DNA of 64,000 nucleotides. Origin: a bacterium (GTDB lineage Bacteria; Desulfobacterota; Deferrisomatia; Deferrisomatales; Deferrisomataceae). The position numbers were made by a program, and so were the translations under genes. The DNA lies in the NCBI GenBank assembly GCA_027021615.1, contig JALUTY010000021.1:1-64000 (forward strand), in the 5' to 3' direction. Under the pieces are notes generated by a model. That model saw only the letters and a list, made by a program, of their open reading frames with translations, searched no databases and was not told the origin of the DNA. Each line of letters opens with the position of its first letter. Within the stretch, counting starts at the first letter, position 1. Below are positions 9,525-20,401 of the stretch, piece after piece.

Positions 9525-9899
9525 TTAGTAATCACTTTCACGGGAGGCCCGCACGAACTTGAGCTTGAGATCCGCGCTTACCGTGCGCAGGAGCGTGGCC
9601 TCGTCGGAGGTCAGGTTGCCGCGGGTCTTCTCCTGGAGCATGTCCAGGATGTCGATGGTGTGGCGGGCCTGCTCCAGGTCCGGCCTCACCTCGCCCGTGG
9701 CCGGGTCTGCCACCTCGCCCAGGTGAACGAGCGCCATCTGGGCCAACCCCACCACAAACCCGGTGAAATCCACCGGGGGCAGCGAGGCCCTGGGCCCCCC
9801 TGCGCTTCTTGGGGTCTCTTTTTCTCCCTCCGCCATCGCCTCGCCGTCCGGCGTTACACGCCGCCGATCTCGCACCGTGAATCCCCGTTCCTCCATCAT
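9525..9899 (-). CDS. DUF1844 domain protein
   Basis: A 124-residue cytoplasmic protein. After a variable 50-residue N-terminus comes the DUF1844 core: PPVDFTGFVVGLAQMALVHL, then GEVRPDLEQARHTIDILDML and a C-terminal helical part. The family is common in Deltaproteobacteria and Planctomycetes; its function is unknown. The ATG at 9899 has GGAGG six bases upstream. A heptamer array (9919-9953) and an octamer array (9974-9997) lie directly upstream in the leader. Confidence 0.85.
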   Translation of the reverse strand: MMEERGFTVRDRRRVTPDGEAMAEGEKETPRSAGGPRASLPPVDFTGFVVGLAQMALVHLGEVADPATGEVRPDLEQARHTIDILDMLQEKTRGNLTSDEATLLRTVSADLKLKFVRASRESDY

Positions 9900-13192: not shown

Positions 13193-15211
13193 TCACAGCA
13201 CGCGGGTCCAGCCGCCGTTCTCCGCGGCCGGCTCCGCCGTATCGGGCTCGGGCTGGGACTGCGGGGGAGAGGGGGCGTGGGCCTCGATGCGGTTGCGGCC
13301 CCGGGCCTTTGCCACATACAGGGCGCGGTCCGCCCGCTGGATCAGCCCCCGCAGGTCTCGGGCGTCCTCGGGGAAGGCCGCCACCCCCATGGACACGGTG
13401 AGCCGGCCCAGGGGTTGGCGCTCCTCCCCCGGGAAGTAAAACGCTTCCACCTCCCGACGGATCCGCTCGCCGATCTCCAAGGCTTCGGCCTTGCGGGTCT
13501 CGGGCAGGATGATGGCGAACTCCTCCCCCCCGAACCGGCTCACCACGTCGATGGCCCGGACGCCGGCCCTGAGGATCCGGCCCAGCAGCACCAGGGCCTT
13601 GTCCCCGGCCGGATGACCGTTGGTGTCGTTGTAGTGCTTGAAGTGATCGATGTCGATCATGATCAGCACCAACGGGTGGTTGTGTCGGGAAGCCCGGTCC
13701 AGCTCCTGAGCCAGACGTTCCTGGAAGTACCGGCGATTCAGGAGGCCGGTCAGCCCGTCGGTGATGGAGATCCGCCGCAGCTCTCGGGACTGGGCCCAGT
13801 AGGCGGAGCGCTCGATGGCCAGGGTGGCCTGGGCCATCACGGTTTCGAGAACGTCCAGGTCCTGGGGGGAGAACGGCTCGCCCGTGGCCTTGTCCGCCAG
13901 GTTCAGCACCCCCACGGTGCCGCCGTTCCGGCGGATGGGAAGGCTCAGGAAGCTGCGAGTGTCGAAGCGGGGGCGGTTCTTGCGCCGAAACCTCGGGTCC
14001 AGCTCAATATCGTGCACGATGATCGGCTCCCCCGTGGCAAACACCCGGCCCGCGATGCCCTCCCCCGGCCTCACCTTGAGCCGGCCCGCCACCTTCTCCG
14101 CCATGCCCACCGCAGCCCGCACCCGCAACGCCCCATCGTCCTCCCCGGGGACCAACAGGCTGCCCTTACGCGCCCCGGTAAGCTTGCGGGCCTCGTCCAG
14201 GATGACCCGAAACAGATCGACGGGATCCAGGCTTCCGAGAAACCGCTGGGACAGTCCGCGTACGGCAGCCACCTGCTCGTGCCGGCGCCGAGCGTCCTCG
14301 CGCAGACGGCGGTTCTCCAGCACGATCGCCAGCTGAACCCCAAACCCCCGTAGAAGCGACCACTCCTCCCCGTCCAGCTCCCGGTTCACCACCGCCAGAG
14401 CCACGGTGGGCCGGTCTTCGGTTCCCACCGGAAACAAGGCCAGGCGCTCCACGGCCTCCGGCAACCCCAAACGGGTGAGGTCGTGGGGATCGTCGATCCG
14501 TACCGGCCGCCGCCCCATCCATTCGGGCCCGCCCGGCCCCTCCACGGGCGCGGACCATGTGAGCAGGGCCTTTTCTAAGGGGCCCGTGGCCGTTTGCACC
14601 CGTAGGCGCTCCGAGCCGGGGTCACGGACCAGCACGGCCGCGTTTTCCACCTCGAACAGGACCCCCAGAGTGCTAAGAGCCAGCCCCCACACCTCGAGCA
14701 CGCTCCCCGCCTGGACCAGATCTGGCAGGAGATCGAACAGGGTAACCGCCCGAACGCGATCCCGCTCGGCCTCCGTGCGCTCCGCGTGCCCCTGCACCAA
14801 TGCCGCCAGGCACAGCCGCGCCAGGGTGCCCCACTCCTGCAACCGACGGGGCTCGGTCTCACCGTCGTCGCTTGGGGTTCCCAGGAGGGTAAGGGTCGGC
14901 CGGTGCGAGGGCTTTGTCACCGGCCCCGCAAACACCAACCGGCCGGAGGAGGAGTCCCGAAACAGGACGGTCTCGCCCCCTGCCTGGGCCTGCTTCACGA
15001 TCTTCCTGAGAAACGGCGGCCACTGCGCCGGATCCTCCGGGGCCTCGGGCCCCGGCAGCCCCAGCGCTTCCAGGCTACCGGCCACGATTCCCCCTGGCAC
15101 AGCCGCCAGGGACAGCCGCAACCCTGTCACCTTGCCGAAGGTCTGCGTGAACCGGGTCCACTCGGATGGAGGAAGGATTTTCCCGATTTTAGGAAGGGAG
15201 GGTTCCCTCAT
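13193..15211 (-). CDS. GAF and GGDEF domain diguanylate cyclase
   Basis: A 672-residue cytoplasmic signalling protein. The N-terminal 300 residues include GAF-like regions; a well-formed GAF domain runs from about 325 to 490 (EARKLTGARKGSLLV, GEGIAGRVFATGEPI, LPIRRNGGTVGVLNLADK). A GGDEF domain follows with ITDGLTGLLNRRYF, the active site GGEEF at 561-565 and an inhibitory I-site RAID at 552-555, exactly five residues upstream. It should make cyclic di-GMP with product inhibition. I start at the ATG at 15211 because a good promoter at 15264-15291 places the transcript start below the alternative upstream codon. Confidence 0.93.
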   Translation of the reverse strand: MREPSLPKIGKILPPSEWTRFTQTFGKVTGLRLSLAAVPGGIVAGSLEALGLPGPEAPEDPAQWPPFLRKIVKQAQAGGETVLFRDSSSGRLVFAGPVTKPSHRPTLTLLGTPSDDGETEPRRLQEWGTLARLCLAALVQGHAERTEAERDRVRAVTLFDLLPDLVQAGSVLEVWGLALSTLGVLFEVENAAVLVRDPGSERLRVQTATGPLEKALLTWSAPVEGPGGPEWMGRRPVRIDDPHDLTRLGLPEAVERLALFPVGTEDRPTVALAVVNRELDGEEWSLLRGFGVQLAIVLENRRLREDARRRHEQVAAVRGLSQRFLGSLDPVDLFRVILDEARKLTGARKGSLLVPGEDDGALRVRAAVGMAEKVAGRLKVRPGEGIAGRVFATGEPIIVHDIELDPRFRRKNRPRFDTRSFLSLPIRRNGGTVGVLNLADKATGEPFSPQDLDVLETVMAQATLAIERSAYWAQSRELRRISITDGLTGLLNRRYFQERLAQELDRASRHNHPLVLIMIDIDHFKHYNDTNGHPAGDKALVLLGRILRAGVRAIDVVSRFGGEEFAIILPETRKAEALEIGERIRREVEAFYFPGEERQPLGRLTVSMGVAAFPEDARDLRGLIQRADRALYVAKARGRNRIEAHAPSPPQSQPEPDTAEPAAENGGWTRVL

Positions 15212-15263
15212 GTGACGTTTTTGCCTCGTTTCCACGACCTGCTCCAACCCCCCGCACAAGCAC

Positions 15264-15291
15264 TCTATAACCGTGTGTCAAAAGGGGTCAA
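15264..15291 (-). promoter_or_regulatory. sigma-70-type promoter of the GGDEF gene
   Basis: On the minus strand TTGACC (15291-15286) is followed after 16 bases by TATAGA (15269-15264), in a locally AT-rich patch within very GC-rich DNA. Transcription would begin near 15257, about 45 bases before the chosen ATG. Confidence 0.5.
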
Positions 15292-15459
15292 GCAGGTGAA
15301 ACCCGGTGGAAACACGCGGAGGGAAGGCCTGGCCGTCCTCACCGGGCCCCACAAGCAGTCCTCCACCGGGTAGGGGTCTCGGAGGAAGGTCATGTGCAAC
15401 CCCGATGCCATCCCGATCTGCGCCGCCCGCCCTCTCCGAAAAAAAGCTCGATTTCGGCC

Positions 15460-15487
15460 TAAAGTTTCTTTTTTCGTCGGCCGAATC
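15460..15487 (+). promoter_or_regulatory. sigma-28 (FliA)-like promoter motif
   Basis: TAAAGTTT at 15460-15467, a 12-base spacer and GCCGAATC at 15480-15487 resemble the flagellar sigma consensus TAAAGTTT-N11-GCCGATAA, one base longer in the spacer and with changes in the last bases. It points away from both flanking genes, which are on the minus strand, and towards the hairpin pair at 15498-15585. Confidence 0.45.
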
Positions 15488-15491
15488 AAAA

Positions 15492-15585
15492 CCCAAGGCG
15501 TCGGAACCGGACTGACCCAACCCGACGCGAACCCCTCTAGCCGGGGCACGGTTTCCCTCCTTTCCCGTGCCTCGGCCATTTTTTT
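15492..15585 (+). ncRNA. candidate small RNA of about 95 nt with two hairpins
   Basis: Directly downstream of the sigma-28-like motif is a first hairpin (GCGTCGG 15498-15504 with CCGACGC 15522-15528; the loop holds two GGA triplets) and then a strong second hairpin ending in seven T's. No reading frame of note lies in it and both neighbours are on the other strand. Family membership was not recognised. Confidence 0.45.
15540..15585 (+). terminator. strong intrinsic terminator
   Basis: Stem GCCGG-GGCACGG (15540-15551) pairs with CCGTGCC-TCGGC (15565-15576), including one G-U pair, followed by seven T's at 15579-15585. It works only in the plus direction, where no protein gene is present. Confidence 0.75.
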
Positions 15586-15726
15586 GACCCGGCGGCCGAG
15601 CTTCGGGCCCTCGGTCCGCTGGGCATCCAGGCGGCGTGAGCCGGATGCTGCATCCGCGTACGGCCGGCAGGTCCCTGCCCTCAGCGCCGAAAAAGCGCGG
15701 CGGCGGCTCCTCCAGCGGCCCAACAG

Positions 15727-16419
15727 CTACCTCGCCCCCCAGGGGCAGGCCCTGACGCACACCCCGCAGATGGGTTTTTCGATGTGGGGCCGCCCGGCGA
15801 ACCCGAAGCAGGCCTCGGCACATCGGGAGAACTCCAGGGCCTCCTCCCGGCTCCGATAGTGACTCTCGGTCCCCACTCCCCGGATTGCCCCCACCGGGCA
15901 GGCGTCGGCGCACGCGGTGCACGATCCACAGAGGTTCGGCGCCGGCCGCCCCGCCGGGAGAGGGGCGTCGGTGAGCACCACGCCCAGCCGCACCCGCGGG
16001 CCGAACTCAGGGGTCACCAGCAACAGGCTCTTCCCCTGCCATCCCAGTCCTGCGAGGCGGGCCAGAGCCTTGTAGGACACGTGGCCCACGAGCCGCTCCC
16101 GGTCCAGCAACTGGGATGCTGGAAGCGGAAGCGCCCGGTATCCCTCGCGTTCCAAGGTCCGAGCCACGGCGAACCCGATCCGATCCAGCTCCTGGTTAGC
16201 CACACGGTAGCAGTGGGCGTACTCGGGCGTCGGTCCCTCCAGACAGGTCTCCACGGAGGCGTCAGGGAGTCTAAGGGCGCAAACCACCGCCCGAAGGTAG
16301 GGCCCCAGCAAACCCTCGGGCCGGGGCTCGAGCCCCTGGGCCGCCCTAAGATCTGCCACGCCCACCCGGTCGGCCCCCAGATCCCGAGCCGTCTCCTCCA
16401 AGCACATCGTCCCGACCAT
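15727..16419 (-). CDS. QueG-like double 4Fe-4S ferredoxin-type protein
   Basis: A 230-residue protein. The C-terminus carries two ferredoxin motifs: CGSCTACADACPVGAI near residue 165 and CGVCVRACP at 219-227, plus extra cysteines between. The middle (SYKALARLAGLGWQGKSLLLVTP) matches epoxyqueuosine reductase and its relatives that bind cobalamin. It is shorter than QueG (about 350-380 residues) and lacks the C-terminal HEAT-like region, so it belongs to the broader QueG-like reductive group rather than being queG itself. AGGAGG precedes its ATG by a few bases, and a heptamer array sits 17 bp upstream. Confidence 0.8.
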   Translation of the reverse strand: MVGTMCLEETARDLGADRVGVADLRAAQGLEPRPEGLLGPYLRAVVCALRLPDASVETCLEGPTPEYAHCYRVANQELDRIGFAVARTLEREGYRALPLPASQLLDRERLVGHVSYKALARLAGLGWQGKSLLLVTPEFGPRVRLGVVLTDAPLPAGRPAPNLCGSCTACADACPVGAIRGVGTESHYRSREEALEFSRCAEACFGFAGRPHIEKPICGVCVRACPWGAR

Positions 16420-17114: not shown

Positions 17115-17190
17115 TTGAAAACCTATCTGATTTCATATCGTTCCAAGCATGACCACACCTCTTCAGGCGTCACCTCACGGTCTCGGGGGC
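17115..17190 (+). repeat. left-flank repeat module L, copy 1
   Basis: Begins ttgaaaacct, continues through cgttccaagcatgaccac and ends cacctcacggtctcggggg at the hairpin element. A reverse-oriented relative is at 61832-61909, with the same ends and about 75-80 bp long. Confidence 0.75.
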
Positions 17191-17371
17191 ATGGGGTCTG
17201 CTGGAGAGCCGCGTGCGGCTCCTTGGCTCGCCGCGCAGCGCCTCCAACGCTCGTACCGGGAGTTCGTTCGTGCCCTACCGAACGGTCGTGAAACCATCGA
17301 CGGTGCCCCGTGCCTGCGCGGCGGATCTCAATGTCCGGCTTCGCGCGCGGCCGGAAGCAGGTCCCATGCCC
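17187..17371. repeat. 185-bp hairpin element, copy C
   Basis: Starts gggcatggggtctgct and ends agcaggtcccatgccc, identical in length to copy A and nearest to it in sequence. It is flanked by modules L (left) and R (right), the arrangement that contains the type II hairpin element at 61689-61836. Confidence 0.9.
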
Positions 17372-17425
17372 CGCCGCCGGCAACGGCCCCGGACCCACGA
17401 AAGTTACCCTTCCCCGTTGTAGGGG
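17366..17425. repeat. right-flank repeat module R, copy 2
   Basis: Runs from the end of copy C through agttacccttccccgttgt to aggg; it matches 2892-2948 and 43428-43485. Confidence 0.75.
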
Positions 17426-20120: not shown

Positions 20121-20161
20121 TACTCAAGTTGCACTCAAAGCTATTGGCCCCACGCCCAGAG

Positions 20162-20346
20162 GGGCAAAGGACCTGTCGGAGGGCCGGGCGCGGCCCCTGG
20201 GCTCGCCGTGCAGCGCCTCCGGCGTCTGGACTGAGAACTGCTGAGGACTCCAACGGGTTGCCATGGAGACAGCTCCCCCGCCCCGTGCCTGCGCGGCGAA
20301 TCTCAATGCCTGGCTTCGCTCCCGGCCGGAGGCAGGTCCCTTGCCC
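20162..20346. repeat. 185-bp hairpin element, copy D
   Basis: Starts gggcaaaggacctgtc and ends ggcaggtcccttgccc, so like copy B it has gggcaa/ttgccc at the ends instead of gggcat/atgccc. It fills most of the gap between the converging plus operon and the minus XdhC genes. Confidence 0.9.
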
Positions 20347-20401
20347 CGCCCCCAGATGCGTATCCGACGGATGGCAACTTGGTATGAGGGCGAGGGCCGG
20401 G

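Follow-up and report, generated by a model that had tools for sequence, protein, structure and literature searches.

A predicted sigma-28-driven small RNA with a 16S-like terminator loop, conserved across a deltaproteobacterial order

Does the intergenic interval at 15212-15726 of the window (the whole 64-kb stretch of DNA analysed here, from an uncultured deltaproteobacterium), bounded by two minus-strand genes, host a small RNA gene under flagellar control, and what might such an RNA do? The original prediction had placed a sigma-28-driven small RNA on the plus strand of this interval and had offered titration of CsrA as one possible function.

Architecture of the predicted RNA

The interval is flanked by a GAF-GGDEF diguanylate cyclase gene (13193..15211, minus strand) and by a gene for a QueG-like 4Fe-4S protein (15727..16419, minus strand; below the QueG cut-off), the latter convergent with the RNA. 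The predicted RNA, of approximately 90-94 nt with both ends estimated, occupies 15492..15585 on the plus strand and is delineated by covariance models, order-wide homologues and covariation. From 5' to 3' it comprises hairpin 1, a 7-bp stem (GCGTCGG/CCGACGC, 15498-15504 with 15522-15528) that differs in sequence between families and retains its pairing; an 11-nt, C-rich single-stranded linker (GAACCCCTCTA, 15529..15539) that is invariant in the genus and partly kept in a more distant relative, G003; and an intrinsic terminator (15540..15585). The terminator consists of a 12-bp stem with one G-U pair (15540-15551 with 15565-15576), a 13-nt loop (TTTCCCTCCTTTC, 15552..15564) that we propose as the pairing site, and a T7 tract (15579-15585), so that the predicted succession of a 7-bp hairpin, a 12-bp terminator stem and seven T's was present as claimed. 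A terminator scan with a loop limit of 8 nt listed none at this locus because the actual loop is longer than that limit.

Evaluating the fold of 15490-15585, we obtained -39 kcal/mol (z = -3.8), with 0 of 200 shuffles folding as well; together with the terminator and the covariation described below, this points, on comparison alone, to a non-coding unit that ends in an intrinsic terminator. A small protein on either strand was considered and rejected, as the predicted RNA has no ATG and a 4-nt indel in the same-genus genome G002 shifts the frame of the overlapping minus-strand ORF, and the ORFs overlapping 15460-15585 are best read as mechanical. No Rfam family matched the locus above its gathering score, the one weak full-length covariance match being to RF02833 (Scr3202 of Streptomyces) on the same strand, at 22 bits (E 0.37) and far under that family's gathering score of 52 bits. 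The RNA apparently represents an undescribed family, covered by no Rfam family, within a kind of regulator that is already known, and a small RNA gene at 15460-15585 is well supported by the sequence comparisons.

Repeats were also seen nearby. Just 3' of the terminator, a 34-nt stretch (15602-15635) is a dispersed intergenic repeat, with several copies of 85-89% identity in the genomes of the genus, and two further intergenic blocks of the window (17173-17378 and 20148-20353) hold diverged repeats of 73-74 nt that are 64-89% identical.

Promoter, order-wide conservation and fliA

A sigma-28-type promoter lies directly upstream of the RNA, as would be expected of a sigma-28-dependent small RNA. 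The predicted plus-strand TAAAGTTT-N12-GCCGAATC arrangement was found at 15460-15487, with a -35 element (TAAAGTTT, 15460..15467) that is an exact consensus, a 12-nt spacer (15468-15479) and a -10 element (GCCGAATC, 15480..15487) that deviates from consensus at three positions, for a combined match of 13/16. Aligning the three species of the genus (the window, G001 and G002) revealed that the -35 element, the GCCGAA of the -10 element and an A7 tract (15439..15445, roughly 45-55 nt 5' of the predicted start), possibly an UP element, are all invariant, and that the spacer has diverged (5/11 positions identical across an 11-column stretch between the window and either relative). An inverted repeat, TTCGGCC/GGCCGAA (15453-15485), surrounds the -35 element and is conserved in the genus; its minus strand runs on into T7, and the repeat may mark the end of the QueG-like transcript or a site of regulator binding.

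Searching the 4.25-Mb genome for TAAAGTTT-N10..13-GCCGA returned 2 sites, against 0 for the reversed control, the second lying upstream of a cheY-like/cheX operon. Its counterparts in G001 and G002 also stand 5' of a CheY-like gene followed by CheX, and in G003 one TAAAGTTT-type motif directly follows fliA and precedes a FliM-like ORF. The sigma-28 consensus of E. coli predicts such motifs at chemotaxis and flagellar genes, and these positions indicate that the motif marks such genes in this lineage as well.

A DNA search of 59 relatives recovered the element in both same-genus genomes at 87-89% identity over approximately 195 nt. Within the RNA, 91/94 and 90/98 positions were identical to the window, and the linker and terminator were identical at 57/57 positions in all pairs of the three species, to be set against the yardstick of 79-81% identity that the neighbouring cyclase gene gives at its fourfold-degenerate sites. 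Elsewhere in the genomes, 20-nt matches to CCCAAGGCGTCGGAACCGGA resembled coding sequence and were set aside as chance.

We then looked beyond the genus with two covariance models. Model R1, built from three sequences and run against 395 genomes of the phylum, matched over its full length in G003 (E 3.8e-7), G007 (4.1e-7) and G004 (1.2e-4). Model R2, built from six sequences and run against the 12 genomes of the class (which are also the 12 of the order), contributed G010, G009 and G006 (1.2e-5 to 5e-5), none of which had been used in building it. In the nine-sequence alignment, which was itself fitted to the structure, 98.1% of cells were paired compared with 34-44% in slid controls, both sides had changed in 10/19 stem pairs, and the covariation score was 0.474 compared with 0.19 in shuffles. 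Genomic context connects these loci too: vanZ, UDG, hflK/hflC, queA and tgt recur in varying subsets around the loci of G003, G004, G006, G007, G009 and G010 (hflK/C, queA, tgt and LivK having been named by eye), and the shared vanZ, UDG, hflK and tgt neighbours tie the RNA loci together between families. A QueG-like gene is common to G003 and the genus of the window, and in G003 the final part of this convergent ORF is overlapped by the RNA. G005 stands outside the tally, its locus sequence ending within vanZ next to UDG.

Other matches are less clear. In the phylum beyond the order, weak hits among the 395 genomes were about as numerous as chance predicts; one of them (L151, G130:C105:7131-7214, E 0.019), which has the loop TCTCCCTCCTTCC and a C-rich linker, is possibly a distant member or a chance match. 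At G011:C100 the terminator hairpin matched alone and had no T-run, and this match was left uncounted. A hairpin that is related in its stem-loop sequence and lacks a T-run (CCGGGGAAAGGTTTCCCTCACCTTTCCCCGG; L170:1501-1541, G000:C83:74741-74781) has a same-span model hit in G002. In a prophage-like region of that genome (G002:C1:4182708-4182798; L160, near 9709-9799) we saw a similar terminator with the loop TTTTCCTCCTTTC and, by eye, no sigma-28-like promoter; it is possibly a case of mimicry or of convergence.

Promoters accompany most of the homologues. Sigma-28-like sites precede 8/9 of them, matching 11-14 of 16 positions with an N11 or N12 spacer and starting at a near-fixed 31-36 nt before the RNA (taking for G006 a start that lies 30 nt earlier than the model hit); a match of at least 11/16 was reached in approximately 0.4-3% of random 85-nt stretches. 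The exception was G004, where the 16-position match scoring stayed at background and no sigma-28 promoter was recognisable. The gene fliA is present in 11/12 genomes of the order, and in the sole genome without it, G008, no strong covariance-model hit was found and UDG is preceded by another gene across a 10-nt gap, leaving no space for the RNA at the syntenic site. That RNA presence follows fliA is suggestive only, there being one informative loss, in an incomplete genome. Taken as a whole, the predicted sigma-28-driven small RNA is strongly supported: promoter, fold and terminator are conserved across the order, the RNA is associated with fliA, and the comparisons also show a conserved loop and orthologues throughout the order.

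The terminator loop and its possible partners

Comparing terminator loops, we found one invariant single-stranded element, CCTCCTT (CCUCCUU in the RNA), in 9/9 homologues. The window loop is invariant within the genus, and the others read TTCCCCTCCTTTC in G003, TTCCCTCCTTTC in G007 and G004, GCTCCTCCTTTGG in G009 and G010, and TACCTCCTTA in G006. Among 28 terminator-like hairpins in 375 kb of the lineage, only homologues carried CCTCCTT in the loop. In the usual bacterial 16S rRNA, CCUCCUU forms the anti-Shine-Dalgarno core of the 3' tail.

We consider it likely that this is a FliA-dependent, trans-acting sRNA of approximately 90 nt whose terminator loop blocks ribosome-binding sites. Active FliA (sigma-28) would transcribe the free-standing RNA gene, the terminator hairpin would display the C/U-rich loop UUUCCCUCCUUUC with its 16S-like core, the loop would pair in trans with certain mRNAs at their G-rich ribosome-binding sites, and translation of these mRNAs would be lowered while flagella are built or used. 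In this way the RNA probably adjusts protein synthesis as cells become motile.

Which mRNAs might be paired is less clear: counts of loop complements compared with the reversed pattern (37 v 37, 38 v 18 and 42 v 35) gave no consistent excess. A loop this generic offers little target specificity. Leads only are a cheW-domain gene (Pfam), with a 12/14 loop-complement match at its start, and pyrophosphatase-like and adenylate-kinase-like genes, identified by eye only; the ribosome-binding-site matches of all three are conserved in two or three species. The cyclase mRNA had seemed an attractive target, its gene being served by a conserved sigma-54-type promoter (TGGCATCGGGGTTGCA / TGGCATCGGSGTTGCA, 15395..15410, minus strand, outside the RNA), which is the sole TGGCA-N6-TTGCW match in the window and is conserved in G001 and G002. 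Its leader matches the loop complement at 12/14 positions (15220-15233) in all three species, but it was rejected as preferred target, its duplex energy ranking 51 of 159 start regions, like shuffled leaders. A wider reading, to which we give some but limited weight, is a motility-coupled translation brake conserved throughout the order, in which a mimic of the 16S 3' end competes broadly for Shine-Dalgarno sequences; if true, it would mean less initiation on strong-Shine-Dalgarno mRNAs during flagella building.

Local action in cis, on the 3' end of the QueG-like mRNA or by read-through into the cyclase leader, appears improbable: the RNA and the QueG-like gene do face each other in G003, with the ORF-end overlap noted above, and in the genus of the window, yet other families combine the same loop with different neighbours (UDG, vanZ, LivK-like), and the cyclase start region is not a preferred partner of the loop. 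Nor do we put much faith in a protein or ribosome route, in which the 16S-like loop would act as decoy for whatever factor recognises the 16S rRNA 3' end. The loop core of each homologue does match the 16S tail, no particular set of targets emerged, and a C/U-rich loop could be bound by a protein; to our knowledge, a decoy sRNA of this kind has no precedent. Against it, a C/U-rich terminator loop has a proven pairing role in RepG (PMC8295292).

Trans-acting pairing also has to be weighed against there being no RNA gene at all, the block instead serving the divergent sigma-54-type cyclase promoter as regulatory DNA (enhancer sites). The conserved site lies 50 nt away on the opposite strand and the inverted repeat flanks the -35 element, but both stems show compensatory changes, the terminator has a U-tract and homologues occur at loci without a cyclase gene, all of which makes this reading very doubtful. 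Least credible of all is the CsrA-titrating RNA under flagellar control, in which the loop GGA sequesters CsrA: csrA was found in all four genomes checked and hairpin 1 of the window carries two GGA triplets, but of the two said to lie in its loop one does (15509-15511) and the other straddles the stem end (15503-15505), the loop GGA reads TGA in G001 and G002, and other homologues share none (G007, G009 and G010 have no GGA in the hairpin 1 loop). Known CsrA sponges have many conserved GGA loops; the window RNA resembles those of the CsrB/RsmY type in being small and structured in a genome with csrA, and differs in having no conserved, repeated loop GGA.

Known systems and what the family may mean

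Sigma-28 small RNAs have already been described in E. coli and Campylobacter. Close in design and in the mode of action proposed here, as likened by published description only, are CjNC1 and CjNC4 (CJnc10 and CJnc170, the latter also FlmR) of Campylobacter, for which sigma-28 control and ribosome-binding-site pairing were proposed and partial repression of reporters was seen in E. coli (PMC4626219); overexpression of CJnc170 leads to shorter flagella and less motility (PMC11187230). Like the window RNA they possess their own sigma-28 promoter and terminator, a predicted ribosome-binding-site pairing and conservation in a species group, whereas they are only 44-47 nt long, use another pairing region and target sigma-54-dependent flagellar mRNAs, and a two-hairpin fold with a 16S-like terminator loop is not reported for them. 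RepG of Helicobacter pylori, which uses a highly conserved C/U-rich terminator loop as pairing site on a chemotaxis mRNA, is similar in mode only; its target is a G-repeat in the mRNA leader, and sigma-28 control is absent from its description (PMC8295292). UhpU, MotR, FliX and FlgO of E. coli are sigma-28-controlled and flagella-linked as well, but they derive from mRNA untranslated regions and were studied with Hfq, and MotR and FliX pair inside coding sequences (PMC10578931).

What the present locus would add is a family that spans an order of little-studied deltaproteobacteria, in which the promoter is clear, both hairpins covary and the 16S-like loop has been retained though most other sequence changed. 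The covariance models permit a search for the family elsewhere, and two questions become testable now: how such bacteria link protein synthesis to the assembly of flagella, and whether selective regulation can be achieved by a bare anti-Shine-Dalgarno loop.
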